Assembly (NCBI RefSeq): GCF_004804335.1 | Contig: NZ_SRXY01000001.1 | Span: forward strand, 1-64,000 | Direction of reading: 5' to 3' | Source of the DNA: Pacificoceanicola onchidii | Lineage (GTDB): Bacteria > Pseudomonadota > Alphaproteobacteria > Rhodobacterales > Rhodobacteraceae | DNA: 64,000 nt | In this document: piece after piece, positions 42,107 to 51,313 of the stretch | Layout of the letters: the number at the start of each line of letters is the position of its first letter | Numbering within the stretch: position 1 is the stretch's first letter | Translations under genes and position numbers: made by a program | The notes under the pieces: model-generated | The model's input: the letters and a program-made list of their open reading frames with translations, nothing else | The model's database searches: none | What the model was told of the DNA's origin: nothing

Positions 42107-42308
42107 GACAATGCCCTCACCCGGCTCCCCTTTGGCGCGAGCGTGGCACAGCTTCGCGCGCAATGAAAGAACGAAAATAGAACACGCATCCAATTCCCCC
42201 CCGGGTCCCCCCACCGCTTGACACCTCCGCCGCGCCCCGCCAAAAGGCGGCCACACATAACCCGCAACCGGGCGTTCCGTGGGCGCCAAAACGACGAGGA
42301 GCATGGCC

Positions 42309-44255
42309 ATGAGCCAGATTTCCCTGACCTTTCCCGATGGCAACAGCCGAGACTTTGACAAGGGCGTAACCCCCGCCGAAGTCGCTGCATCCATTTCCAA
42401 ATCCCTTGGCAAGAAAGCCATCTCCGCGATGGTCGACGGCCAGCACTGGGATCTCCAGTGGCCGCTTGAAGCGGATGCCAAGATCGCCATCAACACCATG
42501 GCGGATGAGGCCCCCGCGCTGGAGCTGGTGCGGCACGACCTCGCGCACATCATGGCCCGCGCCGTGCAGGAGATCTGGCCCGACGTCAAAGTCACCATCG
42601 GCCCGGTCATCAAGGACGGCTGGTACTACGATTTCGACCGCGCAGAGCCCTTCACCCCCGAAGATCTGGGCGCGATCGAAAAGAAGATGAAAGAGATCAT
42701 CAACGCCCGCGATGCCGTGCGCACCGAGGTCTGGGACCGCGACGTGGCGATCAAGTACTACGAGGATCGCGGCGAGCCCTACAAGGTCGAGCTGATCGAA
42801 AGCATCCCCGGCGACGAGCCACTGCGCATGTATTGGCATGGCGAGTGGCAGGATCTCTGCCGTGGCCCGCACCTGCTGCACACCGGACAGGTTCCGGGCG
42901 ACGCCTTCAAACTGATGAGCGTGGCCGGTGCCTACTGGCGCGGCGATTCAAACCGCGCCATGCTGCAACGCATCTACGGCACCGCCTTCCGCAACAAGGA
43001 AGACCTGCGCAAGCATCTGAACATGCTCGAAGAAGCCGCCAAACGCGACCACCGCAAGCTGGGCCGCGAGATGGACCTCTTCCACATGCAGGAAGAAGCG
43101 CCGGGTCAGGTGTTCTGGCACCCGAACGGCTGGACCGTCTACACCGCCCTGCAGGACTACATGCGCCGACAGCAGCGCAAAGGCGGCTATGTGGAGGTCA
43201 ACACCCCGCAGGTCGTGGACCGCAAGCTCTGGGAAAAATCCGGCCACTGGGAAAAGTATCAGGAGAACATGTTCATCGTCGAAGTGGACGAGGAACACGC
43301 CCGCGAAAAGGCGGTCAACGCGCTCAAGCCGATGAACTGCCCCTGCCACGTGGAAATCTTCAAACAGGGTCTGAAATCCTACCGCGAGCTGCCGCTGCGC
43401 ATGGCCGAATTCGGCTCCTGCGCCCGCTACGAGCCGTCCGGCGCGCTGCATGGCATCATGCGGGTGCGCGGTTTCACGCAGGACGATGGTCACATCTTTG
43501 CCGAGGAAAGCCAGATCGAAGCGGAATGCAAACGCTTCATCGCCTTCCTGTCCGAGATTTACCGCGATCTGGGCTTTGCGGAGTTCCGCGTTCTGTTCTC
43601 GGACCGCCCGGAAACCCGCGCAGGCTCGGACGAGACCTGGGACAAGGCGGAAAAGGCCCTTCTCGAAGCCACCCGCGCAGCAGGCGTGGAGCCCGAGATG
43701 AACCCCGGCGAAGGGGCATTCTATGGCCCGAAGCTGGAGTTCTCCCTGACCGACGCCATCGGCCGGGTCTGGCAGTGCGGCACCTTCCAGGTGGACTTTG
43801 TCCTGCCCGAACGGCTCGACGCCACCTACATCGGCGCAGATGGGGCCAAGCACCGTCCCGTCATGTTGCACCGCGCGACGCTCGGCTCGTTCGAGCGCTT
43901 CATCGGCATCCTGATCGAAGAGCATGCAGGCAAACTGCCCTTCTGGCTCGCCCCGCGTCAGGTGGTTGTCGCCTCCATCGTCTCCGAGGCGGATGAGTAT
44001 GTGCGCGAGGTTGTCGCCGCTCTGCAAGCCGCCGGCGTCCGGGCCGAAGCCGACATCCGCAACGAAAAGATCAACTACAAGGTGCGCGAGCACTCGCTGA
44101 GCAAGGTCCCCGTGATCCTCGCCATCGGCCATCGCGAGGTTGAGGAACGCACCGTCACCGTGCGCCGCCTTGGCGAGAAGCAGACCAAGGTTCAGGCTCT
44201 GGACGACGTGATTGCAGAGCTGAAGCAAAGCGCGCTGCCCCCGGATCAGGCCTGA
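42309..44255 (+). CDS. thrS: Threonyl-tRNA synthetase
   Basis: 648 residues, typical for bacterial ThrRS. Domains in order are the N-terminal TGS domain (residues about 1-65), the editing domain, the class II catalytic domain ([10 protein letters not shown] with zinc-ligand Cys) and the anticodon-binding domain with [10 protein letters not shown] near the end. The ATG at 42309 is preferred over 42303, since AGGAG at 42297 then has normal spacing. A very clear terminator follows. Confidence 0.97.
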
Positions 44256-44283
44256 CGCCACACAGTTCCCGGACTACAGAAGA

Positions 44284-44314
44284 ACGGCCCCCGCTGCGGG
44301 GCCGTTTTTTTTTG
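44284..44314 (+). terminator. Terminator of thrS
   Basis: ACGGCCCC and GGGGCCGT arms with a CGCTGC-rich loop and nine Ts after the stem. Confidence 0.93.
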
Positions 44315-44516
44315 CGCAATCCCACTCGTTTGCATTCTTGGCTGGTTTCCATATCCCGACACGGCTCGGCCTGTTGCGTCACCGCCGCAAACTCTGATCG
44401 GCTAGCCTGCCGGCACCCTCAAAGCCACCCTCTTTGCCAACCCGTGACAACACACGGAAAAATTGTTAACCAAATTCACCTTTTAATCGTGAAGCGGGTA
44501 ACCAGGGGGCCTTCAC

Positions 44517-45071
44517 ATGAGAAAATCACTCAAACGTCTCGGCGCTGTGGCCACGGCTGTCACGCTGGCCGCCGGTCTCACCGCAAGCGCGGCGACAGCG
44601 GCAACGGTCAGCGTCACCTATGGCTTGCTGCTCTCCGCCACCTTCGAAGGCACGTTGCAGGGCGATGGCAACACCTTCCTTGTGACCGGCGTGCAGGATT
44701 TCGCGACGATTGCAGGCCTGCCCGCCGCATCGCTGACGTTTGTCACATCCTACGATGCACTGGGTTTTGCCGTGCCCGGCGCCCTCCCGACGATTTCGCT
44801 GGACGGCTCCTCGTTGGACATCCTCGCCTGTGAAGACGCCACTTGCGAGGGCGGTTTCCTGTTTGCGGTGAACTCGGTTGCCTCCGCAACAATCGGCGGA
44901 GACATATTCGCGCGCCTCACCTCGGGAACCACGACTCCCACGGCCTTTGTACCCTCTGCCTATTCGGCCACGCTGAACGAAGCGGCCCCCGTACCGCTGC
45001 CTGCGGGCTTGCCGCTTTTGCTGGCCGGGATCGGCGGGCTGGCGCTGCTGCGCAGGCGCACACGTCGCTGA
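44517..45071 (+). CDS. Secreted protein with VPLPA-CTERM sorting tail
   Basis: 184 residues. A signal peptide ends near SAATAA. The body is short and alternates hydrophobic and small residues, with a cysteine pair ACEDATCEGG. The tail APVPLPAGLPLLLAGIGGLA followed by LLRRRTRR is a VPLPA-CTERM signal. It lies directly upstream of the bufferin cluster but is separated from it by 316 bases with a probable terminator, so the two are likely independent. Confidence 0.8.
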   Translation: MRKSLKRLGAVATAVTLAAGLTASAATAATVSVTYGLLLSATFEGTLQGDGNTFLVTGVQDFATIAGLPAASLTFVTSYDALGFAVPGALPTISLDGSSLDILACEDATCEGGFLFAVNSVASATIGGDIFARLTSGTTTPTAFVPSAYSATLNEAAPVPLPAGLPLLLAGIGGLALLRRRTRR

Positions 45072-45387
45072 AATATTGCTGACATGCGGCGTGATCTGTG
45101 ACGTCGCGCCCGCCCAGCTTGCGCAAAGACTGTAACATTCCAGCGCTGGAAGCATGACACAAGGCTCCGAAATGTTTCGGGGCCATTTGCTTTGCCCCTG
45201 TTTTTATTGACTTTCTGCGGTTGCAAAACCTCACGAAACCCAGCCCGCGGCTGACAGGCCTGTGATGCACGGGGGCGTGAATGGTTCTGAAACAGTTTCA
45301 AAGGCAGAGTGAAGAGGTCCCGGGCAAACGCCACGGGGCACCAAGTTTCAAATCGTTCAAAGACTGACCAGACTGAAAGGAAGTCCA
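45072..45387. promoter_or_regulatory. Control region before the bufferin cluster
   Basis: No gene is seen. It contains a palindrome TTCCAGCGCTGGAA (45138-45151), a hairpin GGC-T-CCGAAATGTTTCGG-G-GCC (45163-45184) with later Ts that may terminate the VPLPA gene, and TGAAAC-A-GTTTCA (45288-45300). GTTTCAAA recurs at 45294 and 45353. Any of the palindromes could bind a metal- or stress-responsive regulator; which one is not decidable from the sequence. Confidence 0.5.
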
Positions 45388-45687
45388 ATGTCCAAGACCC
45401 TCAAAACCGCTGCCATCGTTGGTGCTGTTGCTGCCTCTTTCGCTGCCACCGGCGTGCACGCGATGGACAAGGAAAAGTGCTTCGGCGTGAGCCTCGCGGG
45501 TGAAAACGACTGCGCCGCCGGCCCCGGCACCACCTGCGCGGGCAGCTCCAAGGTTGACTATCAGGGCAACGCATGGACCCTGGTGGACGCAGGCACCTGC
45601 GCCGACATCGAACTGCCGGCCATGGCAGACGGCACGGCCCGCATGGGCAGCCTCGAAGCGCTCGAGCGTGACCTGCCGTCGACCTAA
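45388..45687 (+). CDS. bufA: Bufferin precursor peptide (BufA1, DUF2282)
   Basis: 99 residues. Signal peptide to about residue 25, then the core with four cysteines (31, 42, 50, 71) in the pattern [20 protein letters not shown] followed by TCAGSSKV and DAGTC. This is the DUF2282 bufferin form. In characterised systems the cysteines are converted by the partner enzyme to thiooxazole-type copper-binding groups, and the product buffers metal in the periplasm. It has a strong ribosome site (AAGGAAG) and leads a four-gene string. A GC hairpin lies between it and bufB, which may let the precursor be made in excess. Confidence 0.9.
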
Positions 45688-45709
45688 GACCCGTCTTTGA
45701 CAATACGGG

Positions 45710-45734
45710 GGGCGGGGCTCAGCCCCGCCCTACC
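45710..45734. repeat. Dispersed GC hairpin repeat between bufA and bufB
   Basis: GGGCGGGGC-TCA-GCCCCGCCC followed by TACC. It has the plan of the copies at 28541 and 41406, but other paired bases. It may attenuate transcription into bufB. Confidence 0.65.
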
Positions 45735-45752
45735 GCCTGTTTCTCTTTGGAA

Positions 45753-46610
45753 ATGACCGTCATGTACGACTTCGAACCAAACCTGCCGCCCCTGCCCGGG
45801 GTTGGATACAAGCCCCAGCATTACCGCGACATCCTCGAAGAGGCGGCACCGGTTGGATGGCTCGAGGTTCATGCGGAGAACTACATGGGCGCGGGCGGGC
45901 GCCCGCTGGCGCAAATGCGCGCCCTGTCCGAGCGGTTTCCCATATCTGTGCATGGCGTGGGCCTGTCGATCGGCGGCGCGGGCCGTCTTGATCCAGAGCA
46001 CCTTGCGCGGCTCAAACACCTTGTGGGCTGGCTGAACCCGGCGAGCTTTTCCGAGCATCTGGCCTGGTCCACCCACGACAGCCACTTCTTCAACGATCTT
46101 CTCCCCCTGCCCTATACCGACGCCACGCTGGCGCGCATCTGCGATCACATCGACGAGGTGCAGGACGTCTTGCAGCGCCCGATGCTGCTGGAGAACCCTT
46201 CGTCTTACCTCGCTTTTGCCGAGAGCACCTGGGAAGAACCCGCGTTCCTGCGCGAAATCGCCCGGCGCACCGGCTGCGGGCTGCTTCTGGATGTGAACAA
46301 TGTCTTTGTCTCCGCCGTGAACCTCGGGTTCTCGCCGCAGAACTATATCGACGCCTATGATCTTGACCGTGTTGGCGAAATTCACCTTGGCGGGCATGAC
46401 GAGGACGAGGACGATCACGGCGCGCCGCTGCTCATCGACAGCCACGGGCGCGAGGTCGCCGATCCGGTCTGGGCGCTTCTGGATTACGTTCTGGAACGCT
46501 CGGGGCCGAAGCCGATCCTGATCGAATGGGACACGGATGTGCCGGACTGGCCGGTTCTGCGCGAAGAGGCTGTGCGGGCGGACCGCGCTCTGGCCGGAGT
46601 GTTGGTATGA
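45753..46610 (+). CDS. bufB: MNIO family bufferin-modifying enzyme (DUF692)
   Basis: 285 residues, a TIM-barrel of the multinuclear non-haem iron oxidative (MNIO) family. Conserved stretches are EVHAENY (38-44), SVHGVGLSIGG (66-75), SEHLAW (100-105), LLENPSSY (145-152), LLLDVNNVFVS (177-187), EIHLGGH (209-215) and DSHGREV (229-235). Their His, Asp, Glu and Asn residues bind the iron atoms. It would oxidise cysteines of BufA. Start at 45753 (ATG) or 45762. It ends in an ATGA overlap with bufC, so the two are translated together. Confidence 0.9.
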   Translation: MTVMYDFEPNLPPLPGVGYKPQHYRDILEEAAPVGWLEVHAENYMGAGGRPLAQMRALSERFPISVHGVGLSIGGAGRLDPEHLARLKHLVGWLNPASFSEHLAWSTHDSHFFNDLLPLPYTDATLARICDHIDEVQDVLQRPMLLENPSSYLAFAESTWEEPAFLREIARRTGCGLLLDVNNVFVSAVNLGFSPQNYIDAYDLDRVGEIHLGGHDEDEDDHGAPLLIDSHGREVADPVWALLDYVLERSGPKPILIEWDTDVPDWPVLREEAVRADRALAGVLV

Positions 46611-47437
46611 GCGGCGCAGATCTTCGGGGCGCTGCCCCGTCGCAGCCCGAGGCTGCGACTCCCCGGGATATTTTGAGCACAAAGAAACCAAATCCCGTCT
46701 CGCAAGCGGGTTTTCTTGGCGCGCTGCGGGATGCGGAGCTGGACGTGCCCGACGGGCTGATGGATGGCGAAGGCCGGCCCGCGGGGCGGCGGTTTGCGGT
46801 GTATCGCAACAACGTCGCCGTGTCGCTGCGCGAGGCGCTGGAGGCCGGGTTTCCGGCTGTGGCCAAACTGATCGGGCCGGAGAATTTTGCACGGGCCGCC
46901 GGGATGTATCTGCGGGCGGAACCGCCGGGTTCACCCCTGATGATGGGCTATGGTGCTGGATTTGCCGATTTTCTGGCGGGGATCGAAGCACTGAACAGCA
47001 TCGGCTACCTGGCCGATGTGGCGCGGCTCGAATTTGCCCTGCGCGAGAGTTACCACGCCGCCGATGCGCCCGTTCTGAACCCGGCGCGGCTTCAGGACCT
47101 TTCGGAAGAGGCGCTCATGGCGGCCCGTCTGGTGCTGGCTCCAAGCGTTCGGCTGCTGCGCTCGCCCTGGCCGGTGCTGTCCGTCTATCGCTTCACCATG
47201 ACGCCCGGCAGCCCGAAGCCGCAGGCGCAGGCCGAAGACGTGCTGATTGCCCGCCCCGAGTTTGACCCCGAGCCGCATTTGTTGCCCACGGGCGGCGCGC
47301 CCTTCCTTGCCGCCGTTCAGGTCGGGCAGAGTTTTGGCGCGGCTCTGGAGGCTGCGGGCGAAGACTTCGATCTGGGCGCGATGCTTGGCCTGTTGCTGCA
47401 GACCGGCGCGCTCAGCGACATCATAACGATCCCCTAA
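46607..47437 (+). CDS. bufC: HvfC/BufC family modification partner (DUF2063)
   Basis: 276 residues. The DUF2063 domain begins at about residue 30 (VSQAGFLGALRDA) with FAVYRNNVAVSLREALEAGF then PAVAKLIGPENFARAAGMYL and a second half after residue 150. BufC-type proteins bind the precursor and the MNIO enzyme. The start at 46607 overlaps the bufB stop. Residues 7-28 (RGAAPSQPEAATPRDI and onwards) are coded by a dispersed intergenic repeat (46625-46689), so the N terminus is longer than normal. An internal start near residue 33 is not evident. Confidence 0.88.
   Translation: MSGADLRGAAPSQPEAATPRDILSTKKPNPVSQAGFLGALRDAELDVPDGLMDGEGRPAGRRFAVYRNNVAVSLREALEAGFPAVAKLIGPENFARAAGMYLRAEPPGSPLMMGYGAGFADFLAGIEALNSIGYLADVARLEFALRESYHAADAPVLNPARLQDLSEEALMAARLVLAPSVRLLRSPWPVLSVYRFTMTPGSPKPQAQAEDVLIARPEFDPEPHLLPTGGAPFLAAVQVGQSFGAALEAAGEDFDLGAMLGLLLQTGALSDIITIP
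46625..46689. repeat. Composite intergenic repeat inside bufC
   Basis: Hairpin CGGGGC-GCT-GCCCCG (46625-46639), hairpin GTCGCAGCC-CGA-GGCTGCGAC (46639-46659) and the tail GGATATTTTGAGCACAAAGA then AACC (46666-46689). The first and last parts recur at 19363-19408. Here it lies in the reading frame at the start of bufC. Confidence 0.65.
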
Positions 47438-47447
47438 GGAGCCCCCC

Positions 47448-48020
47448 ATGGACACCCTGATCTCTCTTCACAACCGCCTGTTTTCCATGGTCGAACGCTT
47501 TGGTGACGGGCTCTTGCCGCTGCTCTCGCGCCTGGTTTTTGCAGGGGTGCTGTTCCACTATTTCTGGGCGTCGGGCCTGACCAAACTGGGCGACGGTTTC
47601 TTCGGTTTTCTCAGCCCCAGCGTCGGCGCCTACGCGCAGATTTTCCCCAAGGCGATGGAAGCGGTGACCTATGACACCTCTCAACTGAGCTGGTTCCACT
47701 GGCTCGTGGTCGTCGCTGGCACATGGGCGGAGTTCATCCTGCCCGTGCTCATTGTGATTGGCCTGTTCACCCGCCTCGCGGCGCTTGGGATGATCGGGTT
47801 TGTCGTGGTGCAGAGCCTGACCGACCTCTACGGCCACGGCGGCATCGAACACGAAGGTACGCTGGGCGCATGGTTTGACCGCGCCGCCGACAGCCTGATC
47901 CTCGATCAACGCGCCTTCTGGGTGTTTGTCCTGCTCACGCTGGTGATCAAGGGCGCAGGGGTTCTGTCCGTCGACCGGATCCTGAGCGCCCGCATGGGCG
48001 GCCAGCCGGTCACGGCCTGA
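47448..48020 (+). CDS. DoxX family membrane protein of the bufferin cluster
   Basis: 190 residues with four membrane helices. The DoxX pattern is FAGVLFHYFWASGLTKLGDG then FFGFLSPSVGAYAQIFP, with a later WAEFILPVLIVIGLFTRLAA. In related clusters DoxX may supply electrons or oxidoreductase function at the membrane. The ribosome site AAGGAG is seven to eight bases before ATG, ten bases after the bufC stop. A terminator follows. Confidence 0.88.
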   Translation: MDTLISLHNRLFSMVERFGDGLLPLLSRLVFAGVLFHYFWASGLTKLGDGFFGFLSPSVGAYAQIFPKAMEAVTYDTSQLSWFHWLVVVAGTWAEFILPVLIVIGLFTRLAALGMIGFVVVQSLTDLYGHGGIEHEGTLGAWFDRAADSLILDQRAFWVFVLLTLVIKGAGVLSVDRILSARMGGQPVTA

Positions 48021-48046
48021 CCTTGTCAGCAACCTGACATTCAAAC

Positions 48047-48074
48047 AGCGCCTGACCATTCAGGCGCTGTTTTG
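48047..48074 (+). terminator. Terminator of the bufferin cluster
   Basis: CAGCGCCTGA-CCAT-TCAGGCGCTG followed by TTTT. Confidence 0.93.
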
Positions 48075-48084
48075 CGTTCAAAGC

Positions 48085-48453
48085 TCAGAAATGCGCCTTC
48101 GGCTCGTCCGGCTTGCCCGCCGCCAGCGCCAGGATCCCGCCAAGCCCGGCAAAGGCAATCGGGAACATGGTGAAGACGTTGAAGCCAAAAGCCACATACA
48201 TGCCGAGTGCCGAGACCAGCAGCAGGATGCCGCCCCAGAGCGCGCGCGCCTTTGCCATGGCGCCGCCCGCAATCGCCAGCATGGGCGACAGGATCGAGAC
48301 CACGCGCACCAGCGCCGGATCGTCGAACATGCCGAACACCTCTTCAACCTCGTTGAAGTTACGCGCAAGCTCCGTGTAGCCGAAGCCGAAAAAGCCGACG
48401 AGCATCCCGAAGACGCCCGCGATGATCCCCAAAGTCAGTGCCGCGTTGCGCAT
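48085..48453 (-). CDS. Small membrane protein of unknown function
   Basis: 122 residues with four membrane helices, a DUF4064-like layout (GIIAGVFGMLVGFFGFGYTE, then LSPMLAIAGGAMAKARALWG). The loop ELARNFNEVEEVFGMFDD is acidic. Its start shares a base with the stop of the ArsC-like gene (TGATG), so it is translated after it. Confidence 0.7.
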   Translation of the reverse strand: MRNAALTLGIIAGVFGMLVGFFGFGYTELARNFNEVEEVFGMFDDPALVRVVSILSPMLAIAGGAMAKARALWGGILLLVSALGMYVAFGFNVFTMFPIAFAGLGGILALAAGKPDEPKAHF

Positions 48454-48770
48454 CAGGCCGCTCCTAGGGCGGATTGCGCCGCCTTGTCCCAGCCCAATGT
48501 CATGCTCTCGCCATCGACGATCAAGGGGCGTTTCATCAAGGTCGGATGCGCTTTCAAAAGATCCAAAGGCGCGCCCGCCCGCTCAGAATCACTCAGGCCC
48601 CGCCATGTGGTGGACCGCGTGTTGAGCAATTTTTCGCCGAAGGCCTCCAGGGCGGCTGTCAGAACATCCTGTGGAATTCCGTCTTCCCGCACATCCATAA
48701 ATTGTATGTCCGGCAGGGCTTTGCGCGCCTTTCTGCACGTATCACAGGTTTTCAGACCATAGAGGATCAT
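48453..48770 (-). CDS. ArsC/Spx family reductase-like protein
   Basis: 105 residues, a thioredoxin-fold ArsC family protein. The active region is YGLKTCDTCRKARKALP, a CxxC as in YffB and Spx-like proteins. The later AHPTLMKRPLIVDGESMTLG is the conserved RP loop. It probably binds glutathione or regulates; arsenate reduction is less likely without ars genes nearby. The ATG at 48770 is used; the frame is open to 48959. Confidence 0.87.
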   Translation of the reverse strand: MILYGLKTCDTCRKARKALPDIQFMDVREDGIPQDVLTAALEAFGEKLLNTRSTTWRGLSDSERAGAPLDLLKAHPTLMKRPLIVDGESMTLGWDKAAQSALGAA

Positions 48771-49003
48771 GCCAATTCCTTCGTCGTTTGCGTTCACATA
48801 AGGGGCGAAAGACTGAAATACGAGGACGTTTTGCTTGATTTTTACAAAAGCGCTGCAAATCCTAAGGCTGTGACTTTCGACGATCAGCCCCGGAACACCG
48901 CAACGTCTCTTGCAGCTAAGTTCTTTCCTGAAAGGCGAATGTGACGAAAAGCCCCGCAACAGTCGGGGCTGTTTACTATGACTGGGAAAGGAGCACGGGG
49001 ATT
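48771..49003. promoter_or_regulatory. Leader region of the cold shock gene
   Basis: A 233 base gap. It contains a hairpin AGCCCCG-CAACAGT-CGGGGCT (48950-48970) followed by GTTTAC, and CTTTCC-TG-AAAG-type pairs at about 48923-48934. It may act as a temperature-responsive 5' leader, as in other cold shock genes, or end a short transcript. Confidence 0.45.
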
Positions 49004-50683: not shown

Positions 50684-51313
50684 ATGGCAACACATCCCGT
50701 TGATCTTTCCAAATGGCCGCGCGCGGCGCAGTACCGGCTGTTTCGCGGCTATGAACGGCCCCACTACGCGATCACCGTACGGCTTGATCTGACCCATGTG
50801 ATGGCGCGCAAGGCCAGCGGGCTATCCCCTTATCACGCCTGCCTTTTTGCCATTGGCGCGGGCATTCACGCGGTGCCGGAACTCTGCATGCGCTTTCGCG
50901 GCGAGACCGTTGTGCGGCATGACAGGGTGAGCCTGTCGATGCCGGTTCCCCGCGCGGACGGGGGCTTCAACTTCGGCTATGTGCCCTTCGATACGGACTT
51001 CGCCCGCTTCGACAAGATCGCGGCGCAGCGCATCGCGCAGGCCCGCGCCGCGACAGATCTGAACCCGATTGATGACAGCATAGGTGATGCGGTGGTCTTT
51101 GCCTCCTGCCTGCCCTGGCTCGATTTTACCGCGCTCGACAACGCCCTGCCCAACGCCGAGGACTGCATTCCGCGCGTCAGCTGGGGCAAGATCGTGCCGG
51201 AACAGGGGGGCTTTCGCGCGGCCATGACCATACAGGTGCACCACGCACTGGCGGACGGGGCGCATCTGGGTGTGTTCTTCGAGACCGTACAGGAAACGCT
51301 GGGCGCGCTGTGA
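50684..51313 (+). CDS. CatA-like acyltransferase
   Basis: 209 residues, chloramphenicol acetyltransferase fold. The catalytic histidine motif is VHHALADGAHLGVFFE; the earlier RLDLTHVMARKASGLSPYHA then LFAIGAGIHAVPELCMRFRG fits the family. The motif has ALADG in place of the usual AVCDG of resistance enzymes. It is likely an acetyltransferase for a native substrate; a resistance role cannot be claimed from sequence alone. Confidence 0.85.
   Translation: MATHPVDLSKWPRAAQYRLFRGYERPHYAITVRLDLTHVMARKASGLSPYHACLFAIGAGIHAVPELCMRFRGETVVRHDRVSLSMPVPRADGGFNFGYVPFDTDFARFDKIAAQRIAQARAATDLNPIDDSIGDAVVFASCLPWLDFTALDNALPNAEDCIPRVSWGKIVPEQGGFRAAMTIQVHHALADGAHLGVFFETVQETLGAL

Follow-up and report, generated by a model that had tools for sequence, protein, structure and literature searches.

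A predicted Buf1-type bufferin operon of Pacificoceanicola onchidii and its family-level additions

Do four adjacent genes at positions 45388-48020 of a 64,000-nucleotide stretch of the Pacificoceanicola onchidii genome (hereafter the window) encode a bufferin, a copper-binding ribosomally synthesized and post-translationally modified peptide (RiPP), as an earlier note made from the sequence alone had claimed, and what would set the output of such an operon? Sequence searches and fold prediction make it highly probable that the genes form a four-gene Buf1-type bufferin operon, for which a copper-buffering role is proposed. As a bufferin operon the cluster is genuine but unremarkable and belongs to a known kind; what it adds at the family level is a stem-loop, an upstream site and a repeat in bufC. 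Operon membership was assigned from sequence and fold; chemistry, copper binding and localisation are inferred from published relatives.

A four-gene operon of the Buf1 type

The four co-directional genes described in the earlier note were all found on the forward strand: bufA (45388-45687), encoding a bufferin precursor of 99 aa, bufB (45762-46610), encoding an MNIO-family bufferin maturase, bufC (46607-47437), encoding a DUF2063/RRE partner, and a doxX-family membrane protein gene as the fourth core gene (47448-48020). The ATGA overlap of bufB and bufC is present at 46607-46610. In a Pfam scan, all four proteins exceeded the gathering scores of their families, namely DUF2282 (PF10048, 7.7e-24), MbnB_TglH_ChrH (PF05114, 1.5e-104), DUF2063 (PF09836, 1.1e-22) and DoxX (PF07681, 1.9e-7). 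A genome-wide search returned one MNIO match and one DUF2282 match. This gene set corresponds to the described Buf1 core (PMC12452194), and the Buf1 operons of Caulobacter (CC3254-CC3257, gig) likewise hold a four-cysteine DUF2282 precursor, an MNIO enzyme, a DUF2063 partner and a DoxX protein in the same order (PMC12452194, PMC3511200).

BufB scored 374.6 bits against the NCBIfam equivalog model for MNIO family bufferin maturases (NF050167, MNIO_BufB; cut-off 310) and stayed below the NCBIfam cut-offs for HvfB, ApyH, MbnB and ChrH. It resembles the solved MNIO structure PDB 3bww (1.4e-46), as well as the MNIO chain in 8hci, an entry of TglHI. The putative iron-ligand motifs noted earlier are intact, the putative metal-site residues H64, E98, H99, E144, D177, N179, N180, H208, H212, D226, H228, E255 and D257 being among the invariant columns in an alignment of 28 sequences. 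Most of these are candidate metal ligands by conservation. N179, D226 and H228 were placed against N175, D242 and H244 of HvfB (PMC13419390) through the 3bww alignment, with an assumed offset of one residue. HvfB is described as reaching its mixed-valent diiron state only together with its partner HvfC (PMC13419390). Alternative start codons of BufB are an ATG at 45753 and a TTG at 45747.

An AlphaFold2 model of BufC had a mean pLDDT (predicted local distance difference test) of 92.1, and its Foldseek matches were 8hci (2.7e-6), 8hi7 (4.4e-6) and 3dee (1.4e-4), that is, TglI and the DUF2063 protein NGO1945 (3dee). By its predicted fold, BufC is a partner protein of the DUF2063 plus RRE kind (PME type 1). 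The equivalog score of BufB, the DUF2282 precursor, the fold of the partner and the Buf1 gene set together support the bufferin-cluster reading. Two results weigh against it: the NCBIfam scan of BufA gave no match, and BufC reached 37.1 bits against the HvfC model, below the cut-off of 142. The DoxX protein matched HvfX weakly (28.2 bits, cut-off 80).

MNIO enzymes with DUF2063 partners also occur in the oxazolin system HvfABC, in fontiphorin and in other captophorins, where they make 5-thiooxazoles (PMC13097082), and BufB does match the HvfB family model NF003818 with 225.9 bits. This score is lower than both the cut-off of that model (360) and the score against the BufB model, and the precursor belongs to DUF2282 and lacks the EGKCG repeats of oxazolin-type precursors (PMC13097082). 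An HvfABC/oxazolin-type system in place of Buf1 is thus extremely improbable, having already been largely refuted by the NCBIfam cut-offs. The methanobactin system MbnABC likewise pairs an enzyme of the same superfamily with a copper-binding peptide, but it is described as serving copper acquisition, with a precursor without Sec signal and MbnC as partner (PMC12452194), and BufB does not reach the cut-off for the methanobactin enzyme.

The four-cysteine pattern of BufA is present as claimed, at residues 31, 42, 50 and 71 of the translation, and the N-terminus has, judged by eye, a Sec-like signal make-up ending in V-H-A before MDKEKC. A strict cysteine motif fits 93 of 124 loci, all with a 10-7-20 spacing; the other 31 lie outside the motif, a few of them with other spacings. 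In Buf1, the two central cysteines become thiooxazoles, a disulphide links the outer pair, and the copper-binding peptide is exported via Sec; preliminary results mentioned by the authors indicate that BufB-BufC recognition involves the signal peptide (PMC12452194). By analogy we infer a product with thiooxazoles at Cys42 and Cys50 and a disulphide between Cys31 and Cys71. The idea that the cysteines turn into metal-binding heterocycles would on this analogy hold for the central pair and not for the outer one, and the peptide should not be called secreted, since the published Buf1 product goes to the periplasm (PMC12452194).

In the proposed pathway, BufA would be synthesized with its Sec signal peptide and captured, while still in the cytoplasm, by a BufB-BufC complex, in which BufB, as an iron oxidase, would convert Cys42 and Cys50 to thiooxazoles. 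After export of the peptide the Cys31-Cys71 disulphide would form, and the product would chelate excess copper in the periplasm, with DoxX as a presumed accessory membrane protein. The product could instead serve another metal or stress (gold, chromium, cadmium), since the Caulobacter SigF regulon that holds such operons responds to chromium and cadmium (PMC3511200) and gig denotes gold-induced genes (PMC12452194). We consider this unlikely, as chelation of both Cu(I) and Cu(II), together with a benefit to growth in copper excess, has been reported for the Buf1 bufferin of Caulobacter (PMC12452194).

BufB was found in 46 of the 81 genomes searched, own genome included (33 of the 49 family genomes and 13 of the 32 others). 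Ruegeria, Salipiger, Marivita, Pelagimonas and Leisingera are among the named relatives. The bufA gene was found upstream of bufB in 44 of these 46 genomes. All four genes were matched in 78 of 80 named loci and only bufA, bufB and bufC in the remaining two. One genome of another family (G080) had three MNIO matches, and one locus (L038, genome G008) carries two bufA-like genes in tandem ahead of bufB. BufA itself ends in an 11-residue tail beyond the last cysteine (residues 87-97; 45646-45678), a possible recognition or stability tail; 74 of the 93 strict-motif loci retain a motif of such form.

The stem-loop between bufA and bufB

Folding of the bufA-bufB gap located a stem-loop at 45706-45735 on the forward strand, which we propose as an internal terminator or a stabiliser of the mRNA 3' end. 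The gap of the window folds with -30.9 kcal/mol (z -2.58). Among 41 folded gaps (44 loci with bufA minus three gaps that were too short), the median z was -2.39 and 24 fell below -2, whereas same-length control windows inside bufB (n = 164) had a median z of -0.19, with 17 below -2 (Mann-Whitney, 4.6e-10).

A second set comprised 110 gaps, 33 from family genomes and 77 from named roseobacter-type loci taken as family, many rows being close relatives; L112, L124 and L142 were left out for gaps of >200 or <25 nt. An unbroken stem of at least 8 bp was present in 100 of the 110, the median stem being 11 bp and beginning 14.5 nt past the bufA stop, and 91 were better than shuffled versions of themselves at p ≤0.05. 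When each family genome contributed a single row, the stem was found in 29 of 33 (27 of these at p ≤0.05). The background, taken from 424 kb of the own genome, consisted of 66 same-strand gaps 45-135 nt long, the bufA-bufB gap itself among them, and 24 of these had such a stem (16 at p ≤0.05; Fisher, 7e-7, with rows that are not independent). Outside-family rows were kept apart (n = 13: L052, L056, L058-L068; three gaps too short, two without a found bufA), and none of the eight testable gaps had an 8 bp stem. Stem sequences differ between genera and keep their position within the family; in Ruegeria, the stem is near-invariant amid variable flanks (18 of 19 gaps aligned, L089 left out).

The stem of the window also fits, at 45710-45733, a loosely defined family of dispersed hairpins, GGCGGGGC-n-GCCCCGCCCTAC. 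At ≤3 mismatches the own genome yielded 49 strand-wise matches to this pattern, the site itself accounting for two, and the reversed control had none; likewise, the buf stem sequence of genome G021 occurs at 18 palindromic sites in that genome, its own buf site included. This likeness to dispersed hairpins means that the stem may be a passive repeat, one more functionless hairpin of roseobacter intergenic DNA. Against a function also speak the ten gaps without an unbroken 8 bp stem, the presence of at least four T within the next eight bases in just 33 of 110 gaps, and the fact that stems in comparable gaps of the own genome are not rare. We nevertheless regard a functionless stem as the less probable explanation, because of its excess in family genomes over background gaps, the different stems of different genera and the preserved stem of Ruegeria.

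The comparative data instead incline us, with some reserve, towards a leaky internal terminator or 3'-end protector that would allow many precursors to be made per enzyme. An intercistronic hairpin was reportedly described by Klug in 1987 for the puf operon of Rhodobacter capsulatus, where it too follows a gene with a product required in surplus. Internal terminators of clostridial ABC-importer operons are reported to set stoichiometry and to have longer GC stems with less U; they resemble the present stem-loop in following, within an operon, a gene with a product required in surplus and in being GC-rich with little U (PMC9045158). An Rfam search of 44000-48600 (E ≤1) gave four matches, all below gathering score, of which a weak one to a Brucella small RNA (18 bits, gathering score 270) spans the stem. 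In a search of the open literature for a stem-loop in MNIO clusters, none of the 15 papers listed of 514 was on point.

A dispersed palindromic repeat at the start of bufC

A copy of a dispersed palindromic repeat lies at 46626-46687 on the forward strand, where it encodes approximately residues 7-27 of BufC. The repeat core CCCGGGATATTTnnnGCACAAAGAA occurs at 31 places in the genome and its reversed pattern at none; a hairpin of the GGGGC..GCCCC type lies upstream in 30 of the 31 copies, and a second, variable hairpin is present in 21. Between predicted genes lie 28 of the 31 copies, according to a home-made codon model trained on long open reading frames of the window; the predictor places L010 and L016 inside reading frames, and lists of reading frames, inspected by eye, suggest that both are intergenic. 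A wider repeat pattern was matched without mismatch in 32 of 81 genomes, 31 of these within the 49 family genomes, with up to 102 matches in a single genome and none for the reversed control. The Rfam search of 44000-48600 to E 1 gave no match at the bufC repeat. Searches of the open literature for a roseobacter palindromic repeat gave none on point among the 12 papers listed of 1,638, and no priority is claimed.

An intact copy at the junction was found in four genomes, those of P. onchidii, G001, G026 and Allosediminivita pacifica, in each case in frame after the ATGA start. In most other relatives, a short MSVSQ-like stretch opens BufC. For the bufC repeat, the BufB tree asks for three changes, but its well-supported branches force only one, so that separate origins are not claimed.

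BufC starts within the ATGA overlap, and a TTG at 46673, inside the repeat, is an alternative start. Residues 1-30 of the BufC model have pLDDT values of 56-70, which suggests disorder. Translation of BufC through a repeat-derived, probably disordered N-terminal tail appears fairly probable, as the ATGA start is usual in relatives and, in each of the four genomes found to have an intact element, keeps its frame without a stop. Weighing against a disordered tail, few aligned rows cover it, and the low pLDDT may reflect this scant coverage. Initiation at the TTG, with the repeat as mostly untranslated spacer, would fit the in-frame TTG found equally far past the end of bufB in G000 and G001, as well as Mameliella (L108) and probably Thetidibacter (L113), where bufC starts downstream of an element that looks degenerate in the former and perhaps in the latter; in view of the ATGA starts, we judge it the less plausible option. 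Rickettsia palindromic elements inside genes are another case in which a palindromic repeat contributes, in frame, a portion of a protein. The repeat described here resembles them in this respect and differs in sequence and lineage, and in having 28 of 31 copies between predicted genes.

Upstream site, flanking genes and control of the operon

A candidate control site, the 'buf box' TGACN6GTGANNCACGN4CGTGA, lies at 45252-45280 on the forward strand, 108-136 nt before the bufA start. A looser form, GTGAnnCACGn3-5[CT]GTGA, was present in 50 of 109 upstream regions, and 48 of the 50 sites begin 81-120 nt before bufA, that of the window at 126. At ≤1 mismatch, the long form had ten sites in 49 genomes, of which eight lie just upstream of bufA and two elsewhere (G002 and G003:C11, one mismatch each). 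The own genome holds a single exact box; the other 23 strand-wise matches have three mismatches, vs five matches for the reversed control. Where it is found, the box is nearly private to buf.

Whether a dedicated regulator acts at this site appears evenly balanced from the sequence evidence. The box was found at buf in just 8 of the 22 BufB-bearing family genomes searched, so that it is not universal at the stringency of ≤1 mismatch; moreover, the Caulobacter bufferin operon is under SigF/NrsF (PMC3511200), yet the own genome had no match to NrsF (PF06532) in a search in which the control, Caulobacter vibrioides, was positive (SigF was not searched for). Both points count against the proposed control. 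The operon thus differs from Caulobacter Buf1 in the missing NrsF match, in its upstream site and in its repeat-derived BufC tail. No regulator gene was recognised beside the operon among the flanking genes scanned, and a sigma-70 promoter scan of the region gave no site. The element TGTAACA at about -240 (plus strand; 69 of 109 upstream regions) was rejected as a promoter element, since by eye it seems to overlap the thrS stop in several relatives.

Two overlapping terminator-like hairpins were found by a terminator scan at 45163-45194 on the forward strand, upstream of bufA and after the preceding gene. The region holds five terminator-like sites vs a shuffle mean of 2.7 (standard deviation 1.6), which makes this observation weak on its own. 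A perfect palindrome, TTCCAGCGCTGGAA, lies at 45138-45151, also upstream of bufA. At the other end of the operon, the closing terminator proposed in the earlier note is present as a hairpin at 48043-48072 on the forward strand (-22.9 kcal/mol, z -5.59; none of 200 shuffles matched it), with a short T tract and no entry in the output of the consensus terminator scan.

Upstream of the operon, thrS lies at 42303-44255 (658.9 bits, cut-off 383.65). A thrS match on the same strand upstream of bufA was found in 96 of 126 loci with limited flanks, all 96 among the 110 loci L023-L052 and L069-L148. Between thrS and bufA lies a gene with a VPLPA-CTERM sorting domain (44517-45071; TIGR03370, 35.4 bits, cut-off 25.35), for which the window's own locus gave the sole match among 126 and which is therefore probably a local insertion. 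Beside the operon, on the opposite strand, are genes for a DUF4064-like small protein (48085-48453; 24.1 bits, below the gathering score of 32.1) and an ArsC-family protein (48453-48794), with relatives in 67 and 76 of 126 loci, respectively. A chloramphenicol acetyltransferase-family gene (PF00302, 1.5e-18) is located at 50684-51313.

Taken together, these features allow a tentative proposal, which we rate as possible rather than probable, that a family-specific control in two parts sets the output of roseobacter bufferin operons. At a near single-site box a dedicated regulator would act, and an internal stem-loop terminator would follow bufA, with a stem that has been exchanged from genus to genus and sometimes replaced by a copy of the genome's own dispersed hairpin. 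A second repeat would have been taken into frame as the start of BufC, so that scattered repeats would supply both a regulatory and a protein part of one RiPP operon.

The cluster is one more member of the recently described copper-buffering system. Its added features bear on how precursor is made in sufficient amounts for one enzyme pair and on what switches bufferins on where NrsF is missing, and they offer an example of a biosynthetic operon that draws on repeat DNA.

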